Assembly: GCF_030012985.1 (NCBI RefSeq)
Contig: NZ_CP120233.1
Location: 5,017,001 to 5,081,000, forward strand
DNA length: 64,000 nucleotides
Origin: Microbulbifer sp. VAAF005
Lineage (GTDB): Bacteria; Pseudomonadota; Gammaproteobacteria; Pseudomonadales; Cellvibrionaceae
Reading direction: 5' to 3'
Position numbers and translations under genes: made by a program. This document shows, in pieces, positions 40,092 to 64,000 of the stretch. Every line of letters begins with the position of its first letter. Positions within the stretch are counted from its first letter, which is position 1. The notes below the pieces were generated by a model. That model saw nothing but the letters and a program-made list of their open reading frames with translations, made no database searches and was not told the DNA's origin.

Positions 40092-40601
40092 ATGTTCAGA
40101 ATTCTTCAGATTGTACTTTTCTTTCTGTTGGCCAGTACTGGGCATGCTCAGACTATTGATAGAGATGATATCCGTGGCCTGGATGAGCAGATTCAGGATG
40201 TTAAGAAAGATGTTATTGATCTCACTGCTGAGTTGTCACAGCTGGAGGAAAAGCTCTTATTCCCCTCTAATACGCAGGTAGCTCTTTTTGTCTCGGTGGC
40301 TGATGAAAAGCCCTTCGAGCTGGAGTCGGTTGAGGTCACACTGAATGGCAAATTAGTTGCCCATCATCTCTATACCTACCGGGAAATTGAGTCCCTGCAA
40401 AAAGGTGGGGTACAAAAAATATACACTGGCAATGTGCAAGTGGGTGGGCACCCATTAGAGGTTAGTTTTCTCGGTAAAACCCCATCAGGAAAAGAGTATC
40501 GAGCCACAGCTTCCTACACTGTAGAGAAGGCAGTGGGTCCTAAATTTGTCGAGATTAAGGTTCTGGGAACCGAGTCCACGATAAACTTCAAGGACTGGTA
40601 A
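40092..40601 (+). CDS. Periplasmic coiled-coil protein, first gene of the motor operon
   Basis: A 169-residue protein with a signal peptide (residues 1-19, ending GHAQ), a short coiled coil (about 28-55, DEQIQDVKKDVIDLTAELSQ) and a beta-rich C-terminal domain (residues 60-165; LESVEVTLNGKLVAHHLY, HPLEVSFLGKTPSGKEYRA). GGAGG lies 8 bp before the ATG. It ends 2 bp before the next start and so opens the long operon. I do not recognise a family. Position suggests a periplasmic accessory or adaptor of the Exb/Tol-like complex encoded downstream. Confidence 0.75.
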   Translation: MFRILQIVLFFLLASTGHAQTIDRDDIRGLDEQIQDVKKDVIDLTAELSQLEEKLLFPSNTQVALFVSVADEKPFELESVEVTLNGKLVAHHLYTYREIESLQKGGVQKIYTGNVQVGGHPLEVSFLGKTPSGKEYRATASYTVEKAVGPKFVEIKVLGTESTINFKDW

Positions 40602-40603
40602 TC

Positions 40604-42634
40604 ATGCTCAGGTCCCTGGTAAATGTGTTGTCCTGTCAAACCAGGATGATGCTTGGTGCTCTATCCCTTTGTTCTTTGGCTGCTCTCCCCGCTGCAGCGG
40701 GGACTGAATCGCAGGAAGAACTTAAAGACCTGTTTTTCGGTGCGGCAATGTTTCATGCCCATCAGGAAAGTTATTTTGATGCGATTGTGGCACTGGACAC
40801 AGAACTTGCTCAGTATCACCGCTTAGATCAGCCCGAACTCGATCCTTTCAGTGCGCACTTGGGGCAAGCTGAGTTTTCGGTGGGTGACTTGGAATTGTCC
40901 TACCGAATGCACAGGGAGGCCGGGCGGGCTATTGAGGCTGTACTGCAGGGAAATGTTTCCCAGCCGGTGCGCAATGAAGCCGCGTATCGGCTGGCAAAAA
41001 TTCACTATCACAAACAACAGCCGCGCAATGCCTTACACGCCCTGGAAATGATTGACGGGCGGGTTCCCGAGAGGGTCCGTGCAGATGAGCAGTTTTTGCG
41101 TGCTCGAGTCTATATGCAGCTCGGTCGATTCGAGGAGGCCGTAGAACTGCTGCAAGACCTGAAGGGTGAAGAGTCGCTAGAGGGCTTTGTTTCCTTCAAT
41201 TTGGGTATTGCTCAACTGAAGGCGGGAGAAGAGGAGCGCGGTGTTCTGGAGTTGACTGCACTGGGAAGAAAGCGCAGTTCAGAGGCGGCCCTGCAGGCCC
41301 TTTACGATAAAACCAACCTCTTATTGGGCTCTCATTTAATGGAGCTGGGCAAGCTGGATATGGCGCGCCCCTATTTTGATCGTGTAAATCTCGATGGCCC
41401 TTTTTCAAATAGGGCGCTGCTGGGTGCTGGCTGGGTAGAGGCCCGCGCGGGTCGCTATGACCGGGCACTGGTGCCCTGGAAGCTGTTGCAAGACCGCAAA
41501 GGCACCAATGAGCCAGTGCAAGAGGTCATGTTGGCGGTGCCCTATGCCTACGGCAAACTGGATGTCCACAGTACTGCTGCAATTAATTACGGCCGCGCCT
41601 TAGACGCTTTCGGGCGTGAGATCGATACCCTCACACAGTCTATTCATAGTATTCGCAAAGGTAAGTTCCTTGAGGCGCTGCGTCGTAAAGAGGCCACCCA
41701 GGTACAGAACTGGGTAGTGGCCTTGCGCAATTTACCGGAAGCCCCCGAGACCCATTACTTACTCGACCTGATGGCGTCCAATGACTACCAGGAGTTTCTG
41801 CGGAATTATCGCGACCTCAACGATTTATATGAGCGCAATGAAGAGTGGCTAAAAAGCCTGACAGCCTACGAAGATATTATTCGTATTCGCCGCAACTATT
41901 ACGAACCCCTGTTGCCGGAGCTGGACAGGCAATTCCGTGAACTCGATGCCCGTATCCAACTGCGGATGGAGCAGCGTGACCAATTTGCCAATCGTATAGA
42001 GCAGATGCTGATCTCCCGTCGCCCAGAATACCTGGCAACGGCCGAAGAGCAGGAAGCGCGATTGAAGCTCCTGGAACTTAGCGGAAAAATTGCTGAGCAT
42101 CCCCAGGGCTTTACTGAAACTACTTTGGAGCGGGTTCAGCGGCTCAAAGGTGTTTTGGACCTGCGTCTTTCCTTTGAGTACGACCAGCGTTTGACCGAAG
42201 CCTACAAACACCTGGCGGAATTAAACCAGGAGATCGAAAGTCTCCAGTCTGTTTACGATTCCTTTGTGCGCAGTCGCCAGGCGGCAACTCACAGCTATAC
42301 CGGTTACGACCGCGATATTACTCGTTTGCGCGCGCGTATCCAGCAAACCCAACGGCGACTGAAAACCCTGATGGCGCGCCAGGGCACCATGCTTGAGGCA
42401 TTGGCAATTGCTGAGTTGGAACGCCGTCGCGCACAGTTGGAAAGTTATCAAATTAAAGCCCGCTTCGCCCTGGCAGACAGCTACGACCGCGCTAATGAGC
42501 TTCAGGAGCAGCGTGAAGATGAATTTAAGGTAGAGCAGCACAAGGCGCTGTTGGAAGAGCAAATTCCTGAGGAGAATCCAGCGGAGATGGAGCCGGTGGA
42601 GGAAGAAGAATCAGCAGAGGGAGGTGATTCGTGA
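40604..42634 (+). CDS. Large periplasmic TPR/coiled-coil protein
   Basis: A 676-residue exported protein with a signal peptide ending PAAAG (about residue 33). Residues 40-350 are helical repeats of the TPR type (AAYRLAKIHYHKQQPRNALH, RARVYMQLGRFEEAVELL, LGAGWVEARAGRYDRALVPW). The remainder is long, charged coiled coil (residues 400-640), ending in an acidic tail. The stop overlaps the next gene's GTG start by 4 bp. TPR proteins of this kind are structural parts of Agl/Glt-type envelope complexes. It is inferred to be a periplasmic scaffold between the inner-membrane motor and outer-membrane partners. Confidence 0.8.
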   Translation: MLRSLVNVLSCQTRMMLGALSLCSLAALPAAAGTESQEELKDLFFGAAMFHAHQESYFDAIVALDTELAQYHRLDQPELDPFSAHLGQAEFSVGDLELSYRMHREAGRAIEAVLQGNVSQPVRNEAAYRLAKIHYHKQQPRNALHALEMIDGRVPERVRADEQFLRARVYMQLGRFEEAVELLQDLKGEESLEGFVSFNLGIAQLKAGEEERGVLELTALGRKRSSEAALQALYDKTNLLLGSHLMELGKLDMARPYFDRVNLDGPFSNRALLGAGWVEARAGRYDRALVPWKLLQDRKGTNEPVQEVMLAVPYAYGKLDVHSTAAINYGRALDAFGREIDTLTQSIHSIRKGKFLEALRRKEATQVQNWVVALRNLPEAPETHYLLDLMASNDYQEFLRNYRDLNDLYERNEEWLKSLTAYEDIIRIRRNYYEPLLPELDRQFRELDARIQLRMEQRDQFANRIEQMLISRRPEYLATAEEQEARLKLLELSGKIAEHPQGFTETTLERVQRLKGVLDLRLSFEYDQRLTEAYKHLAELNQEIESLQSVYDSFVRSRQAATHSYTGYDRDITRLRARIQQTQRRLKTLMARQGTMLEALAIAELERRRAQLESYQIKARFALADSYDRANELQEQREDEFKVEQHKALLEEQIPEENPAEMEPVEEEESAEGGDS

Positions 42635-45600
42635 GTAAGTTGCTCAAATCTAAATCTCGAGCTGGTAAATCTCTCAATCGCGCCGTCGGTCTTCTCTCTG
42701 TACTTATAGTGCTAGGGGGTTGTGCGGGAAACAGCGGCAAGACCATCGGCAGTCTCCAAAATGTCGAAGTAGAAATTAAGGAAGAGCATATTGATGGCAG
42801 CCTGGAGAAGGCACTGGCCAGCTACCAGAAGTACTTGCAGGAAACTCCTGAATCCAAGCTGACCCCCGAGGCTATGCGCAGGATTGCCGACCTGAAAATC
42901 AAGCAGGCACACCGCGCTGAAGATGCAGAATTCGATAACCTTGCTGGAGTTGCTGCTGGAAGCGGGGCGGTGATCTCTGTCGATGCGTCAGAAGCTATGG
43001 CTGAAAATACCCTGGATGCTCCAGAGATGACAGCACCGGTGGCCAAGGTAGAGCCGGTAGTGACTGAAGCGCAGGATCCTGGGGTTGTCGAGTCCGACGA
43101 GGAGTTTGAAACCCGGGCAAGTGGCAGCATAGAAATAGCTGCAGATGAAACCCCGCTTGAAGCGCCGGGCGTTGATTCTGAAGAGATGATGTCAGCCAAT
43201 GCCCGCGAGGCCATCGATCTCTATATTAAATTGCTGCAAAAGTACCCCCTATACCACCGCAACGACCAGGTGATGTATCAGTTATCCCGGGCTTATGAAG
43301 AAGCGGGAGAGATTGATGCAGCGGTGGATGTATTGCGCCAGCTGGTGGCCAACTATCCGGACTCGCGACATATCGATGAATCCTGGTTCCGGCTGGGCGA
43401 ATACTATTTTACCCGCAAGAAGTTTCTCGATGCGGAAGAGTCCTACGGAAAAGTTATCGATATTGGTGTGATATCCAGTTTTTACGAGCTTGCCCTGTAT
43501 AAACGCGGTTGGGCGCTGTTTAAGCAAGATATGTATGAAATGGCCCTGGATGACTATATCGCCATGCTGGATTACAAAGTTTCCCAGGGATATGACTTCG
43601 ACCAGCAAAACAATAAAGGCGAGCGCAAGCATATTGACGATACTTTCCGTGTGGTCAGCTTGAGCTTTTCTTACCTGGAAGGTCCTGATTCGGTTGTCGA
43701 TTACTTCTCCCGCAAGGGCAATAGAGATTACGAATTCCGGGTATATAGCCAGCTGGGTGAATATTATTTGGAAAAGCGTCGCTACCAGGATGCGGCAAAA
43801 TCCTATATTGCGTTTGTTGATCGAAACCAGTTGCACAGAGTATCTGCGGATTTCTCAATTCGTGTTATTGAAATCTACAGTAAAGGCGGATTCCCCAAGC
43901 TGGTGCTGGAAGCGAAGAAGGATTTCGCCACTACTTATGCACTTAATGCCGATTACTGGACTGTCTTCGATATTAATGAATACGGAGAGGTGGTTGCCTT
44001 CCTGCAGACCAACCTGATCGACCTCGCCGGGCACTACCATGCGGCTTACCAGAACAAGAAGTTAAAAGATAAGAAGGCCGAGAATTATCGCGAGGCGATT
44101 CACTGGTATCGAAGCTATCTCGATTCCTTCCGGGAAACTGAGCGCGCACCGGAAATCAATTATCAGCTTGCCGGATTGATGTTGGAAAACCGGGATTTCC
44201 ATGGTGCAGCTCTGGAGTATGAGCGCACGGCCTATGAATATCCTGCGCATAAGGATTCCAGCGAAGCAGGCTACGCAGCGGTTTACGCTTATCGCGAACA
44301 TCTGGCCAATAACTTAAAAGATGCAACGGATGAGCAGCGTGCACCACTATTGCGGGAAATTATCCGTTCATCGCTGACATTTGCAGCCACATTCCCTCAG
44401 CATGCCAAAGCCCCTCAGATCATGCTTGGAGCGGTGGAGGATCTTTACGGGTTAAAAGACTATGCCCCGACGATCGCCAATGGCCGTTCACTGTTGGAGC
44501 AGTTCCCCACTGCGGAGCAGGAGATTAGACGTTCTGCCTGGCTGCTGGTGGCTCACGCTTCTTTCGATACTGCGGCCTTTGCGGATGCAGAAATCGCTTA
44601 CGGTGAAACTTTGATGCTGACTGCCCAGGATGCAAAGGATAGGGCGGGTCTGGTAGATAACCTGGCGGCTTCCATCTACCAGCAGGGTGATATGGCCCGT
44701 AAGCAGGAGGATCATGCAACCGCAGCGAATCATTTCCTGCGTATTCGAGGTGCTGCACCTGGCGCGACCATTCTGGCTACGGCGGAGTACGATGCTGCCG
44801 CATCATTGATAGTGCTTAAGGATTGGGTACAAGCGGCAACGGTATTAAATAACTTCCGCAGTCACTTCCCGGAGCATGAGCTGGCGAAAGATGTCACCAA
44901 GAAGTTGGCAGTGGTTTACCAGGAGAGCGGTGAGCTGTTGCTGGCAGCTGCGGAATTTGAGCGTATTGAGCGGGAATCCGAGGACGATGAAATACGCCGT
45001 GAGGCCTTAACCCAGGCGGCAGATCTTTATGCAGCGGCTGAAGATAGCGCTAAAGCGCTGTCTGTTTTGCGTCGCTACGTCGATTATTTCCCCGAACCCA
45101 TGGAGCCGGCGCTGGAGACTCGCCAGAAAATTGCCGATATCTACAAAGTGTCCGGGAATCAAAAGCTTTACATGGCAGAGCTTCGTGAACTGGTGAAAGT
45201 TGAGTCCCGCGGTGGTTCCCAGCGCAGCGACCGCACCCGTTATCTCGCAGGTAATGCGGCCCTGCTATTGGCTGAACCCAGTTTTGAGGCTTTCACCCAG
45301 GTGGATTTGGTTGCGCCTATCGAGAAAAGCCTCAACCTCAAGCGCAAGCGTATGAAAGCAGCCACCCGTGCATTTACTGACCTGATTGATTATCAGGTGG
45401 CCGATGTGACCGCTGCGGCAACCTTTTACCTGGCTGAAATTTATCTCCACTTTAGCGTGGCCCTGAAGGACTCTGAACGTCCAACCAACCTGAATGCCCT
45501 GGAGCTGGAAGAGTATGAGTTGGCATTGGAGGAGCAGATTTATCCCTTCGAGGAAAAAGCCATTTCTGTTCACCAGAAGAATGTCGAGTTGCTGGGCGTC

Positions 45601-45765
45601 GGTATTTATAACCCCTGGGTTGATAAAAGTATTGGCAAGCTCGCCAATTTAATGCCCGCTCGCTATGCACGGGTGGAAGAGGCTGGTGAGTATCTCCAGA
45701 CTATTGTACCCCTGCCGCCAGAGCCGGAATTGCCCTCAGCGGGATCAGCAGTTTCGGGTCACTAA
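42631..45765 (+). CDS. Giant TPR lipoprotein (1044 residues)
   Basis: Begins with GTG at 42631 (GGAGGTG upstream) overlapping the previous stop (GTGA). The N-terminus has a lipobox, VLGGC, so it is a lipoprotein, with Gly after Cys suggesting outer-membrane sorting. An acidic, low-complexity linker (residues 90-185) separates this from about 800 residues of TPR-like helical hairpins (AIDLYIKLLQKYPLYHRND, SRAYEEAGEIDAAVDVLRQL, WFRLGEYYFTRKKFLDAEESY, and further copies). Similar large TPR proteins accompany AglRQS-type motors. A role as outer-membrane-tethered scaffold is inferred. Confidence 0.82.
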   Translation: MSKLLKSKSRAGKSLNRAVGLLSVLIVLGGCAGNSGKTIGSLQNVEVEIKEEHIDGSLEKALASYQKYLQETPESKLTPEAMRRIADLKIKQAHRAEDAEFDNLAGVAAGSGAVISVDASEAMAENTLDAPEMTAPVAKVEPVVTEAQDPGVVESDEEFETRASGSIEIAADETPLEAPGVDSEEMMSANAREAIDLYIKLLQKYPLYHRNDQVMYQLSRAYEEAGEIDAAVDVLRQLVANYPDSRHIDESWFRLGEYYFTRKKFLDAEESYGKVIDIGVISSFYELALYKRGWALFKQDMYEMALDDYIAMLDYKVSQGYDFDQQNNKGERKHIDDTFRVVSLSFSYLEGPDSVVDYFSRKGNRDYEFRVYSQLGEYYLEKRRYQDAAKSYIAFVDRNQLHRVSADFSIRVIEIYSKGGFPKLVLEAKKDFATTYALNADYWTVFDINEYGEVVAFLQTNLIDLAGHYHAAYQNKKLKDKKAENYREAIHWYRSYLDSFRETERAPEINYQLAGLMLENRDFHGAALEYERTAYEYPAHKDSSEAGYAAVYAYREHLANNLKDATDEQRAPLLREIIRSSLTFAATFPQHAKAPQIMLGAVEDLYGLKDYAPTIANGRSLLEQFPTAEQEIRRSAWLLVAHASFDTAAFADAEIAYGETLMLTAQDAKDRAGLVDNLAASIYQQGDMARKQEDHATAANHFLRIRGAAPGATILATAEYDAAASLIVLKDWVQAATVLNNFRSHFPEHELAKDVTKKLAVVYQESGELLLAAAEFERIERESEDDEIRREALTQAADLYAAAEDSAKALSVLRRYVDYFPEPMEPALETRQKIADIYKVSGNQKLYMAELRELVKVESRGGSQRSDRTRYLAGNAALLLAEPSFEAFTQVDLVAPIEKSLNLKRKRMKAATRAFTDLIDYQVADVTAAATFYLAEIYLHFSVALKDSERPTNLNALELEEYELALEEQIYPFEEKAISVHQKNVELLGVGIYNPWVDKSIGKLANLMPARYARVEEAGEYLQTIVPLPPEPELPSAGSAVSGH

Positions 45766-45797
45766 TAACAGGCATTTGCCTTTTGGAGTGGAAAGTT

Positions 45798-46382
45798 ATG
45801 CAAAAACAACTGCGTTTGTTTTTTCTGGTGGGCTTAGCCTTGTTGTTAGCAGCTTGCGCCAGCACCCAAACCAAGTCTGGAAAAATCTCTGATTATTCCT
45901 CGGTGCGGGTATCGGGCAGTGTGAGTCGGGACTTTGAGCGATCCCTGGAATATCTTGCCGAGCAGGATTATGCGAGTGCTATTGAACTTCTGCAGTCAGT
46001 GGTGGAGCGCGAGCAGCGCCTTCCGGCACCCTATATCAACCTGGGTATTGCCCACTACAAAAGTGGCAATGAGGCAAAAGCGGAAGAGGCTTTTTTAAAG
46101 GCATTGGCGCTGGACGAAAAACATCCGGTGGCAACTAATGAACTGGCGGTTCTCTACCGAAAGCAGGGGCGCTTTGCCGAAGCGCGGAAAATATATGTGA
46201 ATGCTTTGGCAGAAAATCCGGAATATCTACCTTTAATAAAAAATCTGGGCATATTGTGTGATCTATATCTGCAAGATCTCCAGTGTGCTCTGGCACAATT
46301 CGAACAATATGTGCAATTGGAACCAGAGGACCGGGATGTCACTATCTGGTTAGCTGATATTCAACGGAGGGCTGGTAAATGA
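45798..46382 (+). CDS. TPR lipoprotein
   Basis: A 194-residue protein starting at the ATG at 45798 with GGAG 9 bp upstream (an in-frame ATG 15 bp earlier is less likely). The lipobox LLLAAC predicts lipidation. Three to four TPR units follow (YLAEQDYASAIELLQSVV, PYINLGIAHYKSGNEAKAEE, AVLYRKQGRFAEARKIYV, IKNLGILCDLYLQDLQCALA). The stop overlaps the start of the next gene (ATGA). It resembles PilF-type pilotins in architecture and could assist outer-membrane assembly of a partner, but this is only analogy. Confidence 0.8.
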   Translation: MQKQLRLFFLVGLALLLAACASTQTKSGKISDYSSVRVSGSVSRDFERSLEYLAEQDYASAIELLQSVVEREQRLPAPYINLGIAHYKSGNEAKAEEAFLKALALDEKHPVATNELAVLYRKQGRFAEARKIYVNALAENPEYLPLIKNLGILCDLYLQDLQCALAQFEQYVQLEPEDRDVTIWLADIQRRAGK

Positions 46383-46699
46383 TTAAACTTCGTTGGGCTT
46401 TGCCATTCGTGGCCAGCTTTATGGTTTTTCCTTATGCCTTGGCTCAGTCTGAGGGTGAGGAGAAGAAAGAATCCACCGATAAAAAGGTGGATTCGAAAAT
46501 TAAGGAGTTGTCGGGTATTTCTATTATCGGTAACAAGGAAGCCCCTAAGTCTCTCTATATTGTCCCCTGGAAAAGTTCCGAAGTGGGTGTCGAAAGCGAC
46601 CTTGTCTCCAGCTTGATGGATGACAAACTCAAACCGCTCGACAAGGAAGTTTTCATGCGTGAGTTGGAGTTCTACCAGCTCAGCCTGTCCGGCGATTAA
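46379..46699 (+). CDS. Small exported protein of the motor operon
   Basis: A 106-residue protein with a signal peptide (ending YALAQ) and a Lys/Glu-rich linker. A C-terminal segment (KSLYIVPWKSSEVGVESDLV) precedes a charged helix. Its ATG overlaps the previous stop by 4 bp. Family not recognised. Conserved position inside the operon makes a structural role in the envelope complex likely. It is the last gene before an intercistronic hairpin that divides the scaffold genes from the motor genes. Confidence 0.7.
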   Translation: MIKLRWALPFVASFMVFPYALAQSEGEEKKESTDKKVDSKIKELSGISIIGNKEAPKSLYIVPWKSSEVGVESDLVSSLMDDKLKPLDKEVFMRELEFYQLSLSGD

Positions 46700-46709
46700 C
46701 GCCATATAG

Positions 46710-46729: not shown

Positions 46730-46768
46730 AGCACCAAGTTTTAGCTGTATTTCTCAAGAGGGTTTGTA

Positions 46769-47500
46769 ATGGGCTTTTTCAATAACGTCATCGAGTTTTT
46801 CCAGACGGGCGGTACTTTTATGTACCCGATTCTCGTGGTTGCCGCACTGGGTGGTGCTGTGGCTATCGAGCGCTTTATCCGCCTGCATTTGGAGCGCCGC
46901 AGCAACCGCAATATGTGGGATAAGCTGCAGCCTGTATTAGCTTCGGGAGACTTCGATCGCGCTCGCAACCTGGTAAAACAGGACGAGTCCAGTGTGAGTA
47001 AATTACTGTCTATGGGGCTGGCCCGGCAGGGGGCTGTTCGCCGTCGTGAAGATATCGAAATCGCGATGGAAGAGAGCATGATGGAGATTACTCCACAGCT
47101 GGAAAAGCGCACCCCTTACGTCGCTTTGTTTTCCAATATCGCAACTTTGCTCGGGCTTCTGGGAACCATTATGGGTCTGATCGAAGCCTTTACAGCGGTA
47201 GCCAATGCCAACCCGGCAGAAAAGGCAGACTTGCTCTCCGCCAGTATTTCCGTGGCGATGAACACCACCGCCTTTGGTCTGATGACTGGTATCCCGTTGT
47301 TGATTGTCCACGCACTGCTGAACTCACTCACCGGTGAAATTATCGATAGCCTGGAGATGGTCTCAGTAAAAGCATCCAACCTGATTGATGGTGCAACCCG
47401 TCGCCGTTTTGAAGTGGAGCCCGCAAAATCCAAGCCGTCTAGTGAAAAAACTGCCCCAGCTAAAACCAATCCAGTAGCACAGCAAGCGGAAACTGCGTAA
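46769..47500 (+). CDS. MotA/TolQ/ExbB proton channel protein
   Basis: A 243-residue inner-membrane protein with three transmembrane helices in the TolQ/ExbB arrangement: residues 14-33 (FMYPILVVAALGGAVAIERF), about 112-135 (PYVALFSNIATLLGLLGTIM) and about 154-180 (AMNTTAFGLMTGIPLLIV). A cytoplasmic domain lies between helices 1 and 2. The GLLGTIMGLIEAF signature is that of the pentameric stator. It uses proton flow to move the ExbD/TonB-like partners encoded next. The basic, Ala/Lys-rich tail is cytoplasmic. The stop overlaps the next start (TAATG). Confidence 0.92.
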   Translation: MGFFNNVIEFFQTGGTFMYPILVVAALGGAVAIERFIRLHLERRSNRNMWDKLQPVLASGDFDRARNLVKQDESSVSKLLSMGLARQGAVRRREDIEIAMEESMMEITPQLEKRTPYVALFSNIATLLGLLGTIMGLIEAFTAVANANPAEKADLLSASISVAMNTTAFGLMTGIPLLIVHALLNSLTGEIIDSLEMVSVKASNLIDGATRRRFEVEPAKSKPSSEKTAPAKTNPVAQQAETA

Positions 47501-48090
47501 TGAGAAGGCGGCGCCACGGGCGGGATAAAGAAGCTCCTGAGCTGGATATCACCGCTTTCTTGAATTTGATGGTGGTATTGGTGCCTTTTCTATTGGTATC
47601 GGCGGTATTTTCGCGGGTGACAATTCTCGAACTGAATATGCCGAGTGGTGCCGGTGGTGGAGCACCGGATGATCCCACGGTTACGGTGGAGGTAGTTGTG
47701 CGAGAACAGGCCGTGGAAATCAGTGATGGTGAAAAGGTTATCGCACGTTTCCCCAACCTGAATATCGATGGCGAGGGTGAAAATGCTCCTATTGAGGCTC
47801 CCGTTGGAGCAGATACAGAACAGACTGAGATTCTCGCTGTGCTGCCCACAGCAGAAGTGTATGACCTTAAAAAGCTCACGCAGTTCTTGTTGGAAGTTAA
47901 GGCCAGTTATCCGGAAAAAACTGATTCCATCATCCTGATGGAGCCCACAATCGCCTATGAGCATTTGGTGGGCATTATGGATACTGTGCGCGGAGCTGAA
48001 GTACGGGTTGAGGGGAGTGATCCCAGTGATCTGGATGCGGTGGAAAAGGTGGTTTTATTTCCTGATATTTCCATAGGGGATGCGCCATGA
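47500..48090 (+). CDS. ExbD/TolR family protein (1), TM Asp replaced by Asn
   Basis: A 196-residue protein with a basic cytoplasmic start (MRRRRHGRDK), one transmembrane helix and a periplasmic domain. It aligns with the second ExbD of the operon: ITAFLNLMVVLVPFLL here against LTSLMDVFTILVFFLL there. Asn22 therefore stands where ExbD/TolR proteins have the proton-carrying aspartate. The periplasmic domain has SYPEKTDSIILMEPTIAYEHLVGIMD, typical of the family. It is probably a structural partner in a mixed dimer with the second ExbD. Start and stop overlap both neighbours. Confidence 0.9.
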   Translation: MRRRRHGRDKEAPELDITAFLNLMVVLVPFLLVSAVFSRVTILELNMPSGAGGGAPDDPTVTVEVVVREQAVEISDGEKVIARFPNLNIDGEGENAPIEAPVGADTEQTEILAVLPTAEVYDLKKLTQFLLEVKASYPEKTDSIILMEPTIAYEHLVGIMDTVRGAEVRVEGSDPSDLDAVEKVVLFPDISIGDAP

Positions 48091-48626: not shown

Positions 48627-48635
48627 TGGAAGTTT

Positions 48636-50015: not shown

Positions 50016-50321
50016 GTCAATGAACGATCGGAGCCTGCCAAAAATAGGTGGGTTCCGATCACTTCAATACGGCGAAAATTTCACCAGATTTTTGCGCTCT
50101 TTTTTTGCTCATACTAGAAAAAACTTTTCATCCTCAGTGCTTGCCTGAGAACCACTTGGCAATCCCCGCAAAAGTTCCCCCTGCTAGCTGGCTAATTATG
50201 ACTTATTTCACGGCTACCAGATGGCGTTGTAATTAAAGTTCGCCCACCGTGGAGTGTCTGGCGTAAATGCCCGACTTGTCTCCAAATATCTGCATTAGAA
50301 AGTGGCGGCTGTTAAGTGATA
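50016..50321. other. Gap between motor genes and the giant repeat gene
   Basis: 306 bp. It contains a long stem-loop at 50026-50060 and no gene. Its size suggests that the giant gene has its own promoter, but no clear hexamers were seen. Confidence 0.45.
50026..50060 (+). terminator. Stem-loop after the motor operon
   Basis: GATCGGAGCCTGCC pairs with GGTGGGTTCCGATC (14 pairs including three G-U) around an AAAAATA loop. It starts 11 bp after the AgmX-type gene. No T tract follows; partial termination or mRNA stabilisation is likely. Confidence 0.55.
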
Positions 50322-56300: not shown

Positions 56301-59300
56301 ATTACTGTATTGCAACCGGTTATCGACAGTCTCACCAAGACCGATGCCACTTGGCCCAGTTCCCATATGAATGTGGACCCGGCCAACGATGTTATGCAGT
56401 TTACCTTGCAGGCCTGTAACTCGGGCCTCGCCTCCGCCTACAACCTATCGCTAACAGACGACTTAGCGACGCAAATGGACGAGAGTTCCATTGCCAATCT
56501 CCAGGTGAGCCTCGACGGTGCTGTACTGACACAGGGAACCGACTACACCTATAGCGCGCCCGCAACGCGCGGTGATGATATGGGTTTCGATTTCCTGGTG
56601 CCAGTTGAGGCGGGCACTTGCCTGGAAATCAGCTACGAAATTGGTTTCTATACGGATATCAGTGGCGGTGAAAGCTGGGTTAATACTTTTACAGTCGATG
56701 AGTTTTGGTCGCTGGAGGGCAATGATGGCGAGCAGTATTCTGCAGTTTCCCTGGGCACTCCTTATCCAATGGGTACCGTTGCGACCAGTGTGACCGCTCC
56801 GCAAAAGACACTGCAGACAGCATCTACTGCCGCTATCGGTGACGAAGTCGTATATCAAATACAGGTGCCTGGCAGTGGCACGACTTCGGCAATTTACGAT
56901 ATTGCAATTTCCGACGTACTGGATTCCAGTCTGGAGCTGGTGCAGCTGCAGGAAATTAATGGGCTCACCTATACCGATAATACCAGTGGGAATAATATCG
57001 ATTTGACAATAGATATTATTCCAGCGGGTACTGTGGCAATTTTTGAAGTGCGCACCCGGGTCGCCAATAATGCGACGGCCCAGGCTGGCCACAGTTTTGA
57101 AAATGAAGTGACTTATACTTACGCCGCAACGGACGGAGGCACTTCACAGTCTGGCGGTACCGGCACTGCGGCGACACTCACGATTGTTGAGCCGGAACTA
57201 AGTGCAACTGCTTCTGTTGCGAATCAAACCAATCCAGGTAACGACCCGGATGCGGGTGATGTACTGCGCTTCACCTTGGACCTTAGCGCTGCGGGCAATG
57301 CAGAAAATTCTGCAGCCTATGACATTTCAGTTAGCGAATTGCTGTCCCTGGGGCTTGAATTTGTGCCGGGCACAGTAACTTTTGCCGGGGCGTCCCAGGC
57401 AGATCCAACTGTAAGTGGTGACGGAGTTACAACTGCACAAACCCTGGCTTGGGATCGGGCTAACAGCGATCTGGATATCGCTGCAAGTGATAGCAGTGCG
57501 CTGGTTTTTGACGCGGTTGTTCTCAACAGTGTACAGCCAGCAGCGACGTTGTCCGCAACTGCCAGTGTTGAGTGGACCAGCCTCGATGAAGATAACAGCA
57601 GCACCTATGAGCGTAATGGTGCCGATGGCAGCGCTGGGCTGAATGATTATTTGTTGGAGAATATTGCTGCTCAGGTAGATGCTGCCAACGACAGTACAAT
57701 CAGCAAAATTCGTCTGGATGACAGCTATGGTAGTGCTGATGAGCAGTTGCGAGTGGGTGATTTGGTTGAATACCAGATTACCCTTTCCCTGCCAGAGGGC
57801 ACGGCTTCCAACGGACTAATTGTCGATACCTTGCCTCAGGGGATGGTGTTTGTAAGCACACTCTCAATCAATGGCGAGAGTTCGGCACCATTTATTGCCA
57901 GCGCACCGTTTACCCACAGTGATATTGCCGAGCCGCTGCAGTCTGGAGACCCTGCCACCGGTGCCACTACAGTCACCTGGAGTATCCCGGACTTGGTAAA
58001 TACCGCTGATAACGATAGCAGCAACGATGAATTTGTTGTGCGTTACCTGGTGCGGGTTCTCAATGAGGATTCCCACCCCTGGCCGGCAGCGAATACTGCA
58101 TTGACCAATACTGCAGAGTTTGGTTTCGATGCTGCCACAGGCGCTGAGACCCGTAGCGATAGTGAAACCCTGGATCTGCTACAGCCGGATCTCTCTGTGG
58201 CGATAAATTCAAGCCCTGCGGATGGCAGTACGCTTTCTGCCGGCGATACGATTGAATATACCGTTACGGTAACTAATAACGGCTCTTCACCGGCTTATGA
58301 TCCGGTATTCCGCGATGTGATTCCCTCAGGTTTGCGACAGGCGGGAATCAGTGTGCAGTCCCTTACGGTAAATGGTGCCACTGCAGCGGTGGTCGCCCCC
58401 TCTTTTGATAGCAGTACCGGTGAAGTCATTTGGGATTTTGCCTCAGGGACCGGTTATGGAATCGATGCGGGCGAATCTTTGGAAATGGTTTATCGGGTTG
58501 AGGCTGATTCCAACTTGGGCGCTGGGCTGAGCCTGCAGAATGCAGCCTATGTTGAAGTTTATTATTCTCTCGATGATGATGATTTACCGTCACTAAATTC
58601 CGTCGCGGTAACTGAGGATTTACGTGAGGACTATGGTCCGACCTCTCCAGTTAGTGTTCAATTTAATACGCCCAATGCTTCACCGTTATTGATTGAGATT
58701 ACCCAATCAACCGCATCTATCGGCGAACCGTTTAATTATCGTATTACCATCCCGGAAACGGTGCAGACCACAGCGCTTCACGATGTCACTGTGTTGATGG
58801 ATCTCACAACGTCCGCTGCAGATTTAGAATTTGTCAGTGCCAGTAAAGTTTCTGGCAGTGCATCTTTCACCCCTGAAAATAATGGTACCGCTACCAGTCT
58901 TAGTATTGCAGACAATACGACTGGAATTGATGTGCCTGCCGGCGAACAAGTGGTAATCGATGTAACACTGCAGTTGCTGGATATAGACCCGCCAAATGTA
59001 GACGGTTTGAATTTTTCTACGAGTGCCAGCTATAGCTACAACTACGAAAATGATAATGCTTCTGTGGGGCAGGGTGCCGGTAGCGGAAATACTACGGCAG
59101 ATATGGAAGTCGTGGAGCCCAGCGCAATTACCCTGACTAAAACTGGCCCGACCAGTGTGCAGTCCGGTGTTGGTGGTACCTTCACTTTAGATTTACACAA
59201 TACCGGTACGGGTCCCGCCTGGGATATTAGTGTTACCGATATTTTGCCGGACAATAATCCCGGTGGTATGTGTGAAACGGCCCCTGACAATTTTACTGCG

Positions 59301-62300
59301 GAAATTACCGATAGCACTGGTATCACCACGGCTACTCTGACGGAAGGCTCCGACTTTACTGCAGTATTCGACAGCGCGAGCTGTACGCTCACAATTACCT
59401 CCATTGGCTCAGCGGCGATGCTGGATGCGGATTACCATCTACTTGTGGGCTACGATGCCTACCTGGATACCGACACCGTTGATGGGGATACGCTGACGAA
59501 TATTGCCGGTGTTACTGAGTGGTATAGCTGGGATAGCAGCTTCAGCGAAGCCCGCCAGTACACCAATGCGGCGCCCACCGATGGTACTCCTGGCGTGCTT
59601 GATCATGAGGACGCTTATTCGGTTACCTCCTCTGTGCCGACAGTGACTTTTTACAAAGCGGTGGAAAATATCAGCCGTGGAGAAAACCCGGCTACTACCG
59701 CCAGTCCGGCAGAAGTTTTGCGTTACACACTGACACTGACCAATACGAGCGGTGTTGATGTAAGTGGAGTTGAAGTTTCCGATGACCTTGGTCGATTAAA
59801 TAATTCTGCATTATTTGAATCGGGCACTTTGCAGTTAGTCAGTGCACCTGCCGGAAGTGACAGTAGTGCTATCGATGCCTCAGCAGGAACCTGGAATAGT
59901 GGCTACCTGGAAGTTGGTAATCTGGACCTCACTGCGAGCGGCACAACAGGGGATTCTATCCAGATTATTTACGAGGTTACGCTGGCTGCAGTTATTGATA
60001 GTGGGACTCAAGTCTTTAACCAGGCCCAAGTTCAGCTGCCCGGGCAAGCGTTACAAGACAGTGATGACCCCAATATCAATGGTACCGATGATCCGGATAC
60101 TGCGGGAGATGAAGATCCCACGGAAGTACAGATTGAATCAGAGCCATTACTGGTCGTAGAAAAAACGTCGGTAGATATTACTGATGATGCCGACTTGTTG
60201 ATGGTGGGAGATACCCTGCGTTACACCATTTCGGTGGAAAATACCGGTAATGAGAACGCGATCAATACTCAGATACGGGATCAGATCCCCGCGAATACGA
60301 CTTATGTCAGCGGCTCTACTACCTTGAACGGCTCTACAGTGTCCGATGTCAGCGGTACCTCCCCGCTGGCTGCCGGTATGGATATTAATACCGATGGCGA
60401 AGCCGATGGTTTTATCAGTGCCAGCGCCAATGGTGTTTCTGCAGCGGTTATCACCTTTGATGTCACCATTAATGACGTTAATGATGGCACCGTAATTTCG
60501 AACCAGGGATTCGTAAATGGTGAAGGAGCGGGTAGTGGTACTTTTGATGAAGTGCCCTCCGATGATCCGGATACTGATACCCCCGATGATCCCACGATCG
60601 ATATTGTCGGCGATGTGCCTCTGTTAATTGCCCACAAGACTGTAGAAATTGCTGAAGACTACACCTCCACAGGGATTGTTGATCCCGGTGATGTGCTCCG
60701 CTATACCATCGCCATTACCAATATGGGGGGTGTGGATGCACAGGAAGTAGCGCTTACCGACCAGGTGCCAGATGACACCACCTATGTTGCCGGTACTACC
60801 ACATTAAATGGTGAATCGGTAGCGGATAACGGTGGTGGTAATTCACAGCTGGATTCTGCATTGCCGGTTTCTTCCGATGACCTGACACCACCCCTGCCGG
60901 GAGCTAACGAGGGTGTTATTACCTCGGGCGAAACAGCCACCGTTACCTTTGAAGTGATGGTGAACGCTGGTACAGCGACAGGTACGGTTATTAGTAACCA
61001 GGGTAGTGTTGAAGCTGATGAGTTGGCACTTACCCTAACCGATGCAGACGGCAACTCGGCCAATGGCGCTCAGCCAACTGAGGTGGTCGTAGGTGATGCC
61101 CAGCTGTTGTCCATTGTGAAAGAAGTTGCCGTTGTCGGTGGCGGGGCTGCAGAAGCAGGGGCGGTATTGGAGTACCTGGTAACCGTCGAAAATATCAGTG
61201 GTGTTTCTGCCACGTATGTTGAGATTACCGATGACCTGGCCATTGCCGGCGATGGCGTCCTCACTTATGTTGCCGATTCAGCTCTGCTCAATGGGCAGGC
61301 TGACGGTGTAACAGTGGCCAACACACTGATCACTGCGGACTACGCCACTACCTACGGTGATTTGGAGCCGGGAGAGGTTGTTACACTGCGTTTCCAGGCG
61401 CAGATGTCGGAAAACCTGGATTACGGTTTTACCGTAGTGAACACGGCAGAAGTGCAGTGGAATGACCCGGCTTCCAGCGCTCAGGCCAGTGTTGCCATTG
61501 ATGTTGGCGGTACGCCGGGCATTGCCAACCTGGCTGGTTACCTGTGGCACGATGTGAATTTCAACAATGCTTTGGATACGGATGAGAGCCTACTGCTTAA
61601 CTGGGCAGTAGATCTGTATTTCAATGAGGAGCTGATGGAAACAGCTCAGTCTGATGAAAATGGCTATTTCCAATTCCAGGGACTGGTGCCCAACAGTTAT
61701 GGCGGCCTCAGTTACGAGATGCGTTACACCGCACCGGATGCCACGGAAAATACGGCTTCATTGGGTAATCCTGTTTCTGATTTCACCAATGGACCACAAT
61801 CGATCAGTGAAATTTATGTGGAATCGGGAGCAAACCCCCAGGACTTAAACTTACCGCTGACACCCAATGGAGTGGTTTACGACTCTGTAACCCGATCTGC
61901 TATTGAAGGTGCCACACTCACCATGCTGAGAGTGAGTTCCGGTCAGGAGCTACCGGCGCGTTGCTTTGATGATGAGAAGCAGCAGGGACAGGTAGCCCAG
62001 TCCGGGGGGTACTACAAATTCGATATTAATTTCAGCGATGCTTCCTGTCCGTCCAACGTGGATTACCTGATTCAGGTAGAAATCGATGATGATGACTACA
62101 CCGGTGGTGAGTCACTGGTAATCCCCGCGCAGACCAATAGCGAAACTGCCGGTTTTGATGTGGCTGGCTGCCTGGGCAGTAATGCCGATATGGTTCCAGC
62201 AACTGCGGACCACTGTGAGGTACAGGAATCTTCCGCACACCCCACCCTCGATGTGGAGGCCCGGGATGCAGCAACAGATTACTATCTGCGCATGACTTTG

Positions 62301-63371
62301 GATGACGGCCAGATTCCAGGGGAAAGCCAGCTGTTTAACAACCATATCGCTATGGACCCGGAGCTGGAAGGGGCGCTGTCCATCACCAAAACTGCCGCCA
62401 TGCTCAATGTAACCCGTAGCCAGCTGGTGCCCTACACCATTACCTTTGGCAACACTCTGCCGATACCCCTAACCGATTTGCAGTTGGTGGATTACTTCCC
62501 CGCAGGCTTCAAATATGTGGCGGGCTCAGCGCGCCTTGATGGCGAGGCGGTTGAACCTGAAAGTGAGGGCCTGCAATTAAGTTGGTCGGATCTGCGAGTG
62601 GAAGCGGAAGAAACTCGTGTGTTAAAGCTGCTCTTGGTTGTAGGTTCCGGTGTGGGCGAGGGCAAATACGTAAACCGCGCGCGCATGTTCAATCAGCTCT
62701 CTGGGCAGGCCGCTTCTGGTGAAGCCTCTGCGACAGTGCGGGTAGTGCCCGATCCCACCTTTGATTGTACTGATGTTATCGGCAAAGTGTTTGACGATAA
62801 AAATATGAACGGCTACCAGGATGAAGGCGAGGGTGGCCTGCCCGGAGCGCGTGTGGCAACTGCGACCGGCTTGAATGTTACTGCGGACTCCCATGGTCGT
62901 TTCCATATTACCTGCGCAGTGGTGCCGAATGGAGACCGGGGTTCTAATTTTGTGCTCAAGCTCGACGATCGCAGCTTGCCAAGCGGGTATCGTCTCACCA
63001 CTGAAAACCCGCGCGTGCTGCGAGCTACCCGAGGCAAGATGCTGAAGTTCAATTTTGGAGCCAGCTTGCACCGGGTGGTGCGCCTGGACATTGCCGATGC
63101 GGTATTTGAACCGGGCACAATAGAACTGCGCCCGCAATGGCACTCCCGAATGGACTTACTGTTGGAAAAACTCAGCGAAGCCCCCTCTGTTTTACGCCTT
63201 GCCTATCTCGGTGAAAATGAAGATCCGGATTTGGTGGAAGAGCGCCTGCAGGCAATTAAGGATCAGGTTGCCAAGGATTGGACGAGTCGTAATGGCGACT
63301 ACGATTTGACCATTGAAACTGAAGTTTTCTGGCGCCGTGGAGCGCCTCCTGGCAAAGGAGGGTTGGAGTAA
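50322..63371 (+). CDS. Giant DUF11-type repeat surface protein (4349 residues)
   Basis: A signal peptide (ending APQAFAQ) is followed by more than 20 beta-sandwich repeats of 130-220 residues of the DUF11/conserved-repeat (adhesin-like) type. Typical repeat parts are LxxTK at the start, GDxVxYxLTLxN, then DxLPxGLxF. Between about residues 953 and 3105 two repeat classes alternate, one ending in W-x-SL (DWTSLDDG, EWTSLDED) and one without. Asp-rich inserts (DNDGDGSSE, DTDNDGVGDG) look calcium-binding. Residues 3106-3730 hold four repeats separated by DDPDTDTPDDP-like linkers. Two SdrD B-like domains follow (YLWHDVNFNNALDTDE; GKVFDDKNMNGYQDEGEGG), and a degenerate OmpA-like end (FEPGTIELRPQW). 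The ATG at 50322 is preferred to a GTG 6 bp earlier. Confidence 0.88.
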   Translation: MKSEIVEQKSYKSTFIGFLLVCAAFLIAAPQAFAQSSCPSITEDPTGFNILSHRSSDSWCVLCGDGQVTIEVDVPSIYSGLAGTQYIENIVITENFGSSGLEYVTGSTSVSSGSVLGEPTISGTTITWDQNDLSALSDLAESTTLTITFNVRSQDEEEEELVVNNRTLNATATFDYCSYPTTTDTDSMELAIREPEPSMDKRGRNMDAAQTNYTNNVYGNIEDDVIWRIRISNNGEADMQDARFDDLMSNPNMDINYACPSETTAEAVANNNGVAPSGSSCVSASNSVNDFELDGNFSNGSGRTDVPSGGTLDIYLVGKVNTSCSNGTNTVSDLQWGCEIDGDTGVGGITSPAEASSPGSDTSAMRVVSSSDLTISQEITGTNLNQPLGASGYVTITVNNQTGGSVKDVQFVSDLPDEYVVDTTFTPEITQERRGIDNHGANYSSTYDGKVDTLEWRVGSTWNQWDTDPLNNNQPEFRLLSSTVHSVYSDQENMMRHGDEIQIRFRVVTIEPDFYDFEADLDVEEESSTTGTDPNSNIALTGNVLTIDYEDFCSSTSPATQVETESVTPDPEDLDVSTVHPLYIVRDSGTSELTVDITNNGGHDANDYSVYITFGEAMTVLSNDRSCTALGNPSLGTVPGHPLWNQPDYLPDSSTVYFCDSGDLGGEIGPGDTERVVFEVEKNHSATDDDLTFRADVVGEITLYDGTALGFPDPVSLTNTTPNQQLANNYTLDGMRARVMGFNLIKDRSDECNELTSESAYPNSSVLIGEECSFEIQAGGWFGFDTPGFTLIEVKDVDVIDDLPDGQGYIADSALNCSDVTLPDTTSQANCVAISTGDIVEGGGLNNSLSETDLQWDITASITEKDRWFLADMTTRLLNDPADTESTDPNQHANDSIDYARAQFTAVFDTETIIVDNYNTSGTLTNIDGVPTTVPGFPDVTEWSESVTVTEPSIEVDKKVCNENLYGTGTTCSNFVDFTDEGHRDQTYIFRLTVTNRASDNGVDRAPAYDIVVTDNLDSSGQMCVQALESDSLDNDGDGSSETTSGDDGWVGTTSGTNNYSEASHCGDGGTPAVITFSYEHSSALERINPGDSVTLYYRVKPDESVAPLQLFTNTFFARYDSLEDDFSNQTTPQIVSDTDNDGVGDGTPAAGRARHYQSDNALAQMQIIEVQAEPKEALEFSNGTASGTSSDTAVVGEEIRYELTAQIPAAKLRDFVIRDELPAGMRCIEGETIDLSASPFDTAGFVPGGTFNATCTSTGTADYVEWDFGDQELTTVSGSLFDFPVEFIARIENSSNTNDGDVLGNGGSYTTAQVSYVDESGASVAVPFDAHEITILEPEIQLTKSFAVTNSDADDILTVTVIAENTGSADAYNLQVLDDLTGSNLVYLGNVGGNDPPNNIDVTTVGSNAPIFSWNRSNGDYTIAAGDTKTFTFEVQVEQGVEPHEVLDNTIEARWQSLPGSDIALNSSNVIGTDGDADGMRIGVLPNVGDPINDYETTASAQTEVPALELTKTDLDTTVVPTIGAHKEFQLEISLPEGVSENVVVTDQLGSPEGYVLSHNTDYDITYDFVGIETINGSAPSESAFNSFPGDNTSGNASWDIGTVDTNSEDDTAGSSISPLIRITYFARIENDLSTNDGDSRQNSAALTYSNGESGSTESLNDSTTSITVVEPLLAISKTVSNATNPGNLPVGGDVLEYVITVEHDSSSGAPAYELNLVDTLPSELTFDSSFTPTAEIGGTAVSGFVATPAAAPSGPLVWGRDNSDNSLDLQLGETLVLTYRTQVTGVFGSPINNSVMLDWTSLDDGSINDQAYERDGAGCPSISAPDDYCVGPAEASIDTVDNTSITKTVTADTDTATAVGTLRVGDTVTYQLTLNLQAGTTPGVTIDDVLPSGLEFDTVVSVNGDSAAPYSDNLNDFTYSANSVPAAGDTGTVAWDLGDISSNFGNTNNFIIEYTAKVVVSSGIASPTATLTNTAQLNYTGAASTLQDSADITVLQPVIDSLTKTDATWPSSHMNVDPANDVMQFTLQACNSGLASAYNLSLTDDLATQMDESSIANLQVSLDGAVLTQGTDYTYSAPATRGDDMGFDFLVPVEAGTCLEISYEIGFYTDISGGESWVNTFTVDEFWSLEGNDGEQYSAVSLGTPYPMGTVATSVTAPQKTLQTASTAAIGDEVVYQIQVPGSGTTSAIYDIAISDVLDSSLELVQLQEINGLTYTDNTSGNNIDLTIDIIPAGTVAIFEVRTRVANNATAQAGHSFENEVTYTYAATDGGTSQSGGTGTAATLTIVEPELSATASVANQTNPGNDPDAGDVLRFTLDLSAAGNAENSAAYDISVSELLSLGLEFVPGTVTFAGASQADPTVSGDGVTTAQTLAWDRANSDLDIAASDSSALVFDAVVLNSVQPAATLSATASVEWTSLDEDNSSTYERNGADGSAGLNDYLLENIAAQVDAANDSTISKIRLDDSYGSADEQLRVGDLVEYQITLSLPEGTASNGLIVDTLPQGMVFVSTLSINGESSAPFIASAPFTHSDIAEPLQSGDPATGATTVTWSIPDLVNTADNDSSNDEFVVRYLVRVLNEDSHPWPAANTALTNTAEFGFDAATGAETRSDSETLDLLQPDLSVAINSSPADGSTLSAGDTIEYTVTVTNNGSSPAYDPVFRDVIPSGLRQAGISVQSLTVNGATAAVVAPSFDSSTGEVIWDFASGTGYGIDAGESLEMVYRVEADSNLGAGLSLQNAAYVEVYYSLDDDDLPSLNSVAVTEDLREDYGPTSPVSVQFNTPNASPLLIEITQSTASIGEPFNYRITIPETVQTTALHDVTVLMDLTTSAADLEFVSASKVSGSASFTPENNGTATSLSIADNTTGIDVPAGEQVVIDVTLQLLDIDPPNVDGLNFSTSASYSYNYENDNASVGQGAGSGNTTADMEVVEPSAITLTKTGPTSVQSGVGGTFTLDLHNTGTGPAWDISVTDILPDNNPGGMCETAPDNFTAEITDSTGITTATLTEGSDFTAVFDSASCTLTITSIGSAAMLDADYHLLVGYDAYLDTDTVDGDTLTNIAGVTEWYSWDSSFSEARQYTNAAPTDGTPGVLDHEDAYSVTSSVPTVTFYKAVENISRGENPATTASPAEVLRYTLTLTNTSGVDVSGVEVSDDLGRLNNSALFESGTLQLVSAPAGSDSSAIDASAGTWNSGYLEVGNLDLTASGTTGDSIQIIYEVTLAAVIDSGTQVFNQAQVQLPGQALQDSDDPNINGTDDPDTAGDEDPTEVQIESEPLLVVEKTSVDITDDADLLMVGDTLRYTISVENTGNENAINTQIRDQIPANTTYVSGSTTLNGSTVSDVSGTSPLAAGMDINTDGEADGFISASANGVSAAVITFDVTINDVNDGTVISNQGFVNGEGAGSGTFDEVPSDDPDTDTPDDPTIDIVGDVPLLIAHKTVEIAEDYTSTGIVDPGDVLRYTIAITNMGGVDAQEVALTDQVPDDTTYVAGTTTLNGESVADNGGGNSQLDSALPVSSDDLTPPLPGANEGVITSGETATVTFEVMVNAGTATGTVISNQGSVEADELALTLTDADGNSANGAQPTEVVVGDAQLLSIVKEVAVVGGGAAEAGAVLEYLVTVENISGVSATYVEITDDLAIAGDGVLTYVADSALLNGQADGVTVANTLITADYATTYGDLEPGEVVTLRFQAQMSENLDYGFTVVNTAEVQWNDPASSAQASVAIDVGGTPGIANLAGYLWHDVNFNNALDTDESLLLNWAVDLYFNEELMETAQSDENGYFQFQGLVPNSYGGLSYEMRYTAPDATENTASLGNPVSDFTNGPQSISEIYVESGANPQDLNLPLTPNGVVYDSVTRSAIEGATLTMLRVSSGQELPARCFDDEKQQGQVAQSGGYYKFDINFSDASCPSNVDYLIQVEIDDDDYTGGESLVIPAQTNSETAGFDVAGCLGSNADMVPATADHCEVQESSAHPTLDVEARDAATDYYLRMTLDDGQIPGESQLFNNHIAMDPELEGALSITKTAAMLNVTRSQLVPYTITFGNTLPIPLTDLQLVDYFPAGFKYVAGSARLDGEAVEPESEGLQLSWSDLRVEAEETRVLKLLLVVGSGVGEGKYVNRARMFNQLSGQAASGEASATVRVVPDPTFDCTDVIGKVFDDKNMNGYQDEGEGGLPGARVATATGLNVTADSHGRFHITCAVVPNGDRGSNFVLKLDDRSLPSGYRLTTENPRVLRATRGKMLKFNFGASLHRVVRLDIADAVFEPGTIELRPQWHSRMDLLLEKLSEAPSVLRLAYLGENEDPDLVEERLQAIKDQVAKDWTSRNGDYDLTIETEVFWRRGAPPGKGGLE

Positions 63372-64000
63372 TGCCCTTTGCGAAACGGAATATTTTCCAG
63401 AAAGCAGGCTCGACAAACTCTTCAGTGAAGTCGATCCGCTTTTTCCCCCGGCGGGACCGCCGTCTGGCCACTGCAATTGCACTGGCACTGACACTTCCGG
63501 CCCAGGCCCAAGATGCAGATTCGCAACTGAATGAGCTTGGCTGGTGGCAGGTGTGGCAGAATATTCCAAGCCTGAATTCTGAGGAAAATGAAACTCAAGT
63601 AGAGTTCGAGGAGCAATCAATCGGTAGTAATACCGAAGGTATGCTGCTGCGCGCCCCCACAAATCAGTGGCTTCAGGATGCGACACAATTCGTATCGCCG
63701 CTAGACCCGATTGTGGTGGAAGATTTTATTGACCCAATCCTGTTCCATGGCGTTGAAGATGAAGTTTCTCCAGAGACGGTGGAATTGTTGCGCCAGAGCC
63801 TGAATGAATTGGGCGAGACGCCTAATTTCAAATTGCACTTCATTGGCCATACCGATTCTGACCCTCTTACTGGGGAGTTGGTAGCGGACTTTACCAGCAA
63901 AGAAGAATTTACCCTGGCGCGAGCCCAGTTTGTGGCAGACTTCCTGCAAGAGGCTCTCGAACTGCCGGAGCAAATGATTGCCGTTGAAGGGCGCGGAGAT
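63371..64000 (+). CDS. OmpA-family protein, cut by window end
   Basis: Starts with ATG at 63371, sharing its first base with the TAA of the giant gene (TAATG). The first 210 residues are visible. A basic N-terminus (FFPRRDRR) and a signal peptide ending LPAQAQ are followed by a linker, then an OmpA-like peptidoglycan-binding domain: VSPETVELLRQSLNELGE, KLHFIGHTDSDPL, EFTLARAQFVADFLQ and ENIAVEGRGD-like (QMIAVEGRGD). Translational coupling implies that it works with the giant repeat protein, perhaps holding it to the cell wall and outer membrane. The 3' end lies outside the window. Confidence 0.85.
   Translation, partial: MPFAKRNIFQKAGSTNSSVKSIRFFPRRDRRLATAIALALTLPAQAQDADSQLNELGWWQVWQNIPSLNSEENETQVEFEEQSIGSNTEGMLLRAPTNQWLQDATQFVSPLDPIVVEDFIDPILFHGVEDEVSPETVELLRQSLNELGETPNFKLHFIGHTDSDPLTGELVADFTSKEEFTLARAQFVADFLQEALELPEQMIAVEGRGD

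Follow-up and report, generated by a model that had tools for sequence, protein, structure and literature searches.

We analysed a window of 64,000 nt on the single 5.4-Mb chromosome of Microbulbifer sp. VAAF005 (assembly GCF_030012985.1, contig NZ_CP120233.1, positions 5,017,001-5,081,000 of the forward strand), with coordinates counted from its start. Eleven open reading frames (ORFs) follow one another on the plus strand from position 40092 to beyond the window end, in the order g1 to g5, Q, D1, D2, X, giant, and partner (Table 1). Judged by their families, the first nine are the Agl/Glt core complex of Luciano et al. (2011, PMC3169522), an envelope motor with a channel (Q), two ExbD proteins (D1 and D2), and a transducer (X). 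They are followed by a giant DUF11 protein and a partner with a predicted large β-barrel. The motor core was already known; its strict, clade-specific link to the giant and the barrel was not found in the available text of the open-access literature.

All eleven ORFs predicted by an earlier sequence-only reading of the window were located at the place and on the strand that it gave. Its statement that most of the nine core genes overlap by 1-4 bp holds for four of the eight junctions from g1 to X, the other four being gaps of 2-69 bp. The gap between X and the giant measures 300 bp. The OmpA-like protein that it placed after the giant was borne out by three OmpA stretches in a partner of 1730 aa in the genome; the two genes overlap by 1 base.

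Table 1. The eleven ORFs of the module, in gene order (scores in bits, with family cut-offs where given)
Feature	Coordinates	Strand	Length (aa)	Description
g1	40092..40601	+	169	Small exported protein heading the core; N-terminus signal-like by eye
g2	40604..42634	+	676	Exported TPR protein; TPR_16 34.5
g3	42631..45765	+	1044	Large TPR lipoprotein; TPR_6 61.1; lipobox LGGC at 28
g4	45783..46382	+	199	TPR lipoprotein, GltE-like; TPR 58.6; lipobox LAAC
g5	46379..46699	+	106	Small exported protein directly before the channel gene Q; N-terminus signal-like by eye
Q	46769..47500	+	243	TolQ/ExbB/AglR-type proton channel; MotA_ExbB 85.3 (cut-off 22.9); PDB matches are TolQ/ExbB chains
D1	47500..48090	+	196	ExbD-type; ExbD 45.9 (cut-off 25.4); Asn22 at the ion-carrying Asp position
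D2	48087..48626	+	179	ExbD-type; ExbD 53.2 (cut-off 25.4); canonical Asp30
X	48636..50015	+	459	Transducer; coiled-coil-like N-terminal part (taken as cytoplasmic), one transmembrane segment at ~166-190, Lys/Pro-rich stretch, AgmX/PglI (TonB-like) C-terminal domain; NF033768 67.4 (cut-off 40)
giant	50316..63371	+	4351	N-terminus hydrophobic and signal-like; repeats of DUF11 (CLIPPER) and of the RrgB isopeptide type; match resembling SdrD_B; last 290 aa conserved
partner	63371..64000 in the window (first 210 aa), on to G000:C1:5085563	+	1730	Three OmpA domains, middle region, predicted large β-barrel

Distribution of the core, the giant, and the barrel

A genome scan for X confirmed 212 stretches, of which the best 80 were kept; the 28 top relatives (L020-L047) are all labelled Microbulbifer, and because of this selection, far relatives are under-sampled. 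All nine core genes were present in 64/80 X loci, and no break of gene order was found. Giant-like sequence, for which we required a same-strand tblastn score of 50 bits or more within the locus, was located downstream of X in 71/80 loci. Twenty-seven of these are labelled Microbulbifer, and the other 44 include many gammaproteobacterial metagenome-assembled genomes (MAGs), some Gallionellales and other betaproteobacteria, and one record labelled Myxococcota. The match usually lies in the next long ORF; a few loci (L043, L080, and L083) have an interrupted frame or one that begins at a distance of more than 1 kb. In three loci of the Desulfuromonadales type (L077, L091, and L099), the C-terminus of the barrel (54-59% identical) ends just upstream of the core instead, so the association survives a change of gene order. 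Three loci (L026, L058, and L068) were too short to judge, and in another three (L089, L096, and L098), the last two of which begin inside the core, neither giant nor barrel was matched in the 2.3-3.2 kb of downstream sequence covered. Giant-like sequence downstream or a barrel just upstream was therefore present in 74 of the 77 assessable loci. Because the same order and families recur in distant hosts, a chance arrangement or annotation artefact was ruled out.

Searches with X and with the barrel (730-aa query) were each run on 276 genomes of the class, and the draw was assumed to be the same since the genome labels agree. A full-length X, coiled coil included, was found in 10/276 genomes. 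With a barrel identity threshold of 50% over most of the query, which was chosen after the data had been seen, the barrel was present in the same ten genomes (10/10) versus 0/266 others (Fisher p = 1.7e-18); a laxer threshold of 46% gave 10/10 versus 3/266 (p = 4.8e-16). Short barrel fragments were dropped from the count, including one in G066 with 53% identity across 44 residues. In six of the ten long-X genomes, a single contig carries the whole run in unchanged order, and in the remaining four (G143, G276, G291, and G132) the motor and the barrel are on separate contigs. Of these four, G143 and G276 have giant-like sequence after X; in G291, the contig ends 0.4 kb from X; and in G132, no giant match was found in the 2.7 kb left after X.

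A shorter form of X, with open frames mostly of 310-380 aa and a match that starts after the coiled coil, occurs at 57 places in 53 of the 276 genomes. These sites share no contig with a listed barrel match, except on the chromosome of VAAF005 itself, where at least about 1 Mb separates the two. Q, D1, D2, and X were present in all of six short-X regions, and most of g1-g5 in five of them. In an unrooted tree of Q, D1, D2, X, and g3 with 27 long-X and 6 short-X tips, the short-X tips group together with a support of 1.000, and the G132 core adjoins them. One short-X core lies in the VAAF005 genome (L163:10484-19701, ~3.462-3.472 Mb) as a second set of nine genes in the same order, with pieces that are 25-52% identical, no giant, and Ser at the Asp position of D1.

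Several observations limit the link between motor and giant. The six short-X regions, of 20 kb each, contained no giant or barrel match (0/6) and thus represent a core without the giant. Among the 80 loci, L089, a Gallionella MAG, carries the whole core with neither match and is the clearest exception. Related DUF11-barrel pairs also exist with no motor nearby. The sequence-only reading had held that regular occurrence of such motors without a giant, and of the giant elsewhere, would break the link that it proposed, and both occur in part. The link is strongly supported, but for the long-X clade only. Since the short-X sister clade lacks the giant, an association of the core with the giant in its general form was rejected, and by this comparison of loci, the giant is a trait that belongs to the long-X clade and not to the entire core.

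Of 19 further barrel loci, 9 have the DUF11 protein and the barrel fused into a single ORF, and one of these nine belongs to the motor clade; this count leaves out six complete motor-clade runs, all of them split, with which it becomes 9/25. The median length of the DUF11 protein was 2185 aa without a motor (n=6) versus 4187 aa beside one (n=7; p = 0.022) when complete unfused ORFs were compared and kinship was ignored in the statistics. This comparison omits fused ORFs and open-ended ones (motor-linked, at least 3043 and at least 3370 aa; motorless, at least 3091 aa), and the six motorless ORFs and that of G132 were measured from a start codon or a stop, not by one rule. VAAF005 itself has a motorless pair at L121:6663-15661 (~4.522-4.531 Mb), in which a DUF11 protein of 1593 aa with a terminal OmpA domain is followed 2 kb on by a 745-aa barrel that is ~29% identical to the partner barrel. 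In G153:C2 (~446-464 kb), an ORF of 11777 aa fuses DUF11-like sequence and a barrel.

Properties of the motor, the giant, and the partner

The gene families named in the sequence-only reading were borne out for the channel, both ExbD proteins, and the AgmX/PglI domain (Table 1), and TPR matches were found in three proteins. The clustering of a channel, two ExbD proteins, and an AgmX/PglI transducer, which marks the Agl/Glt core, was thus observed here. The proposed kinship with Agl/Glt was upheld by the score of X above the AgmX/PglI cut-off, by its match to the GltG model below the cut-off (51.7 bits, cut-off 650), and by a gene set of the same kind as the core in the available text of PMC3169522. 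As for the group A genes of the Myxococcus gliding machine (gltA, B, F, H, I, J, and K), scoring covered the window proteins, among which X gave the GltJ model 28.4 bits (cut-off 450). The topology of X given in Table 1 was derived from hydropathy and alignment A2. A profile made from A2 gave only weak PDB matches (E 0.013 or worse), all in the N-terminal coiled-coil part, and the sequence search returned no solved relative for the C-terminal domain at E up to 1.

The ion-carrying Asp in the transmembrane helix of ExbD, a feature of 5:2 motors, is present in D2 and replaced by Asn in D1. Across the 80 X loci, D1 has Asn in 78/78 covered loci, and D2 keeps Asp in 79/79. Of the six short-X regions, five have Asn in D1, with Ser in the paralogue from VAAF005, and all six have Asp in D2. 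The constant pair of Asn and Asp suggests a D1/D2 heterodimer with one proton path. In the text of PMC9389320 available to us, both AglQ and AglS are described with the Asp, unlike D1, and the choice between hetero- and homodimers is left undecided there; the split between D1 and D2 bears on that question.

The giant is of the DUF11 type, as the sequence-only reading had proposed, scoring 200.4 bits for DUF11, 255.1 for TIGR01451, and 214.6 for TIGR04226. The proposed length of 4349 residues applies only from the ATG at 50322, and the GTG at 50316 gives 4351 codons. TIGR01451 matches lie in 7 stretches and RrgB isopeptide domains in 9, and the SdrD_B match is just below its cut-off; a blastp self-comparison gave no repeat rows. 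The tandem DUF11/isopeptide repeats behind a signal-like N-terminus correspond to the makeup of a fibrillar adhesin. The C-terminal 290 aa are 63-79% identical in 19 homologues picked from the best 120, and their end is predicted to fold as beta-alpha-beta-alpha-beta. This C-terminus was found at high score in 36/37 genomes of the genus, that of VAAF005 included, the missing one being 80% complete; in 21 other genomes of the order, there were two weak matches and 19 without any. Two strong copies lie 10-16 kb apart in four genomes of the genus (G019, G011, G024, and G028), where the giant looks tandemly duplicated. The lengths of the best 120 relatives of the giant bunch near 2850, 3450, 3750, 4350, and 4550 aa, as if whole domain blocks had been gained or lost.

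The C-terminus of the partner gave a weak match to a barrel model, and a large barrel is predicted; in the predicted model of a homologue, the last 490 residues contain 27 strands. Foldseek matches of the barrel include LptD and SprA (the latter at E 2.6e-6 with a low TM score, among many barrels) and are spread over many unrelated barrel families. For membership in the type IX system, no curated model passed, and the structural matches were unspecific.

Proposed mechanism and alternatives

We lean towards reading the eleven genes as one proton-driven trans-envelope machine that targets a giant surface fiber. Q and a D1/D2 heterodimer would form a 5:2-type motor in the inner membrane, and X, standing beside it with the coiled coil at the cytoplasmic end, would pass force across the periplasm via its Lys/Pro-rich linker and TonB-like end. 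The periplasmic g2 and the outer-membrane lipoproteins g3 and g4 would relay this force to the barrel partner, the OmpA domains of which would grip the peptidoglycan. The giant would be exported by Sec, cross or sit at the barrel, be held there by its C-terminal end, and project as a long isopeptide-stiffened adhesin. We infer the step from a motor linked to the fiber to a motor that acts on it. Since homologous DUF11-barrel pairs exist without a motor, display of the giant is probably independent of the motor, and for the same reason, mechanical work on the displayed fiber, such as pulling, retracting, tensioning, or moving it, appears more likely than energized export.

We regard it as rather unlikely that the motor serves energized secretion, in which it would power the passage of the fiber through the barrel, or the opening of the barrel, without moving the fiber, as TonB opens receptors and GldLM powers the type IX translocon, and would be needed because the passengers are unusually long. 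This role would agree with the TonB-like domain at the end of X and with a barrel that looks translocon-sized and has among its structural matches LptD and SprA. The greater length of the motor-linked DUF11 proteins in the small comparison above is consistent with it as well, a difference that would fit either mechanical work or energized export. However, motorless DUF11-barrel pairs and fusions exist, with one barrel forming part of an 11777-aa ORF, so that a motor is not demanded by length alone, and the case for an obligate role of the motor in display is weakened; the spread of the structural matches over unrelated barrel families also argues against a secretion role.

A role in envelope maintenance, with the core as a Tol-Pal-like tether between the outer membrane and the peptidoglycan and the OmpA-bearing barrel and the giant as its outer anchor instead of an adhesin, is improbable. 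It draws on the TolQR-type motor, on a match of g3 to a YbgF-like TPR model (84.2 bits, under the cut-off of 90.1), and on the three OmpA domains of the partner, perhaps with an uncertain fourth at the end of the giant. Nevertheless, it is difficult to see a tether in an exported fiber that has mostly 2800-5000 aa and repeats of the isopeptide type, and any X-type match is present in only 67/276 genomes of the class. Mere neighborhood, in which shared regulation or transfer alone would keep giant and motor together, could draw on the 300-bp gap after X and on the spread of the core by horizontal transfer (available text of PMC3169522) but is very improbable, given that the association holds in gamma- and betaproteobacterial and Desulfuromonadales-type hosts, in two gene orders, and with a genome-wide co-occurrence of 10/10.

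As a more far-reaching and tentative proposal, which we hold to be doubtful as a whole, the machine with a motor acting on the fiber may be a proteobacterial counterpart of GldLM/SprA/SprB. An asymmetric ExbD-heterodimer motor, with one Asp and one Asn, would pull or convey a long (estimated 100-nm-scale) isopeptide-stiffened fiber through an outer-membrane barrel, which might allow for active adhesion, for retraction, or for movement on surfaces among bacteria of which most are not known to glide. The Agl/Glt core might have had this task from the start, before myxobacteria made a gliding machine of it. The likeness to the gliding and type IX secretion machinery of Bacteroidota lies in the logic rather than in demonstrated sequence kinship: a proton motor, a very large outer-membrane barrel (SprA), and a giant surface adhesin (SprB, ~6,500 aa, in the portions of the literature available) are combined in both, whereas the motor family and the fiber domains differ.

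According to the available text of PMC3169522, the seven-gene Agl/Glt core (gltC, D, E, G and aglR, Q, S) is clustered in gammaproteobacteria, one betaproteobacterium, and Geobacter, spreads patchily by horizontal transfer, and has a function given as unknown. In 2013 it was described, in the part of PMC3858216 at hand, as a standalone machinery of many gammaproteobacteria, and a basal transport machinery was suggested. The module shares with this core one channel, two ExbD proteins, a GltG-like transducer, and TPR proteins in one cluster, but the words "adhesin", "downstream", and "barrel" are absent from the main text of PMC3169522 and no giant is named in the text available, whereas here the long-X clade alone has a giant and a barrel. 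The Agl-Glt gliding and Nfs spore-coat machines of Myxococcus xanthus (PMC3858216 and PMC9389320, as far as their available text goes) likewise consist of an AglR-type channel, two ExbD proteins, a TonB-like transducer, and TPR relay proteins and exert force on surface material; the myxococcal surface adhesin named in the available text of PMC13104615 is, however, CglB with a von Willebrand domain and not a DUF11 giant. DUF11 is an isopeptide stalk domain of fibrillar adhesins (CLIPPER), one of which, B9T28_05395 of Acinetobacter silvestris, has an OmpA-like anchor (PMC12617251); these adhesins share the stalk and the anchor with the module, but the giant is about twice as long, and the available text names neither a motor nor a barrel partner. 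A search with profile A3 at E up to 0.001 gave PDB 9ifr as the one solved relative by sequence. Force transducers with a vWA domain beside tolQ/tolR/TPR genes (PMC12204202) resemble the module in that a new transducer and a TPR gene accompany motor genes in which tolR-like genes are paired, but with vWA in place of the AgmX domain, and "giant" and "DUF11" do not occur in the main text. The combination is not mentioned in the available text of PMC13104615, PMC12505986, or PMC12204202, and none of the open-access papers listed joins this motor with a DUF11 giant in its title, in the start of its abstract, or in the text available. The clade-specific link to a giant and a barrel suggests for the Agl/Glt core outside myxobacteria a concrete job that can be tested in culturable Microbulbifer, and if the motor does act on the fiber, bacteria would have a new form of active adhesion, from which gliding could plausibly have started.

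Relay proteins, small exported proteins, and flanking sequence

By size, domain, and place, g2 is probably GltC-like, the GltC of M. xanthus being listed with 673 aa and TPR in Table 1 of PMC3169522. Size and order similarly point to a GltD-like g3, with GltD listed in the same table as a TPR protein of 1191 aa; the match of g3 to the PorW/SprE model reached 25.9 bits (cut-off 250). The match of g4 to the NCBIfam GltE model (30.9 bits) was far below the cut-off of 225. A scan for promoters was below the shuffle mean, and a terminator scan was ~1.8 standard deviations above it. Near the giant, the only match resembling a promoter overlaps the start codon of the giant and therefore gives no evidence for a separate promoter.

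In the family-model scans, no family passed its cut-off for g1 or g5. Nevertheless, tblastn homologues of each were located at the same place in most of the 80 X loci, so that both are kept in most cores seen without a match to a known family. One extra core gene without a myxococcal homologue was reported by Luciano et al. (available text of PMC3169522), and this gene could be g1 or g5. The module is flanked on both sides by MFS transporter genes (38432-39847 and L009:5700-7082) that are 45% identical to each other.
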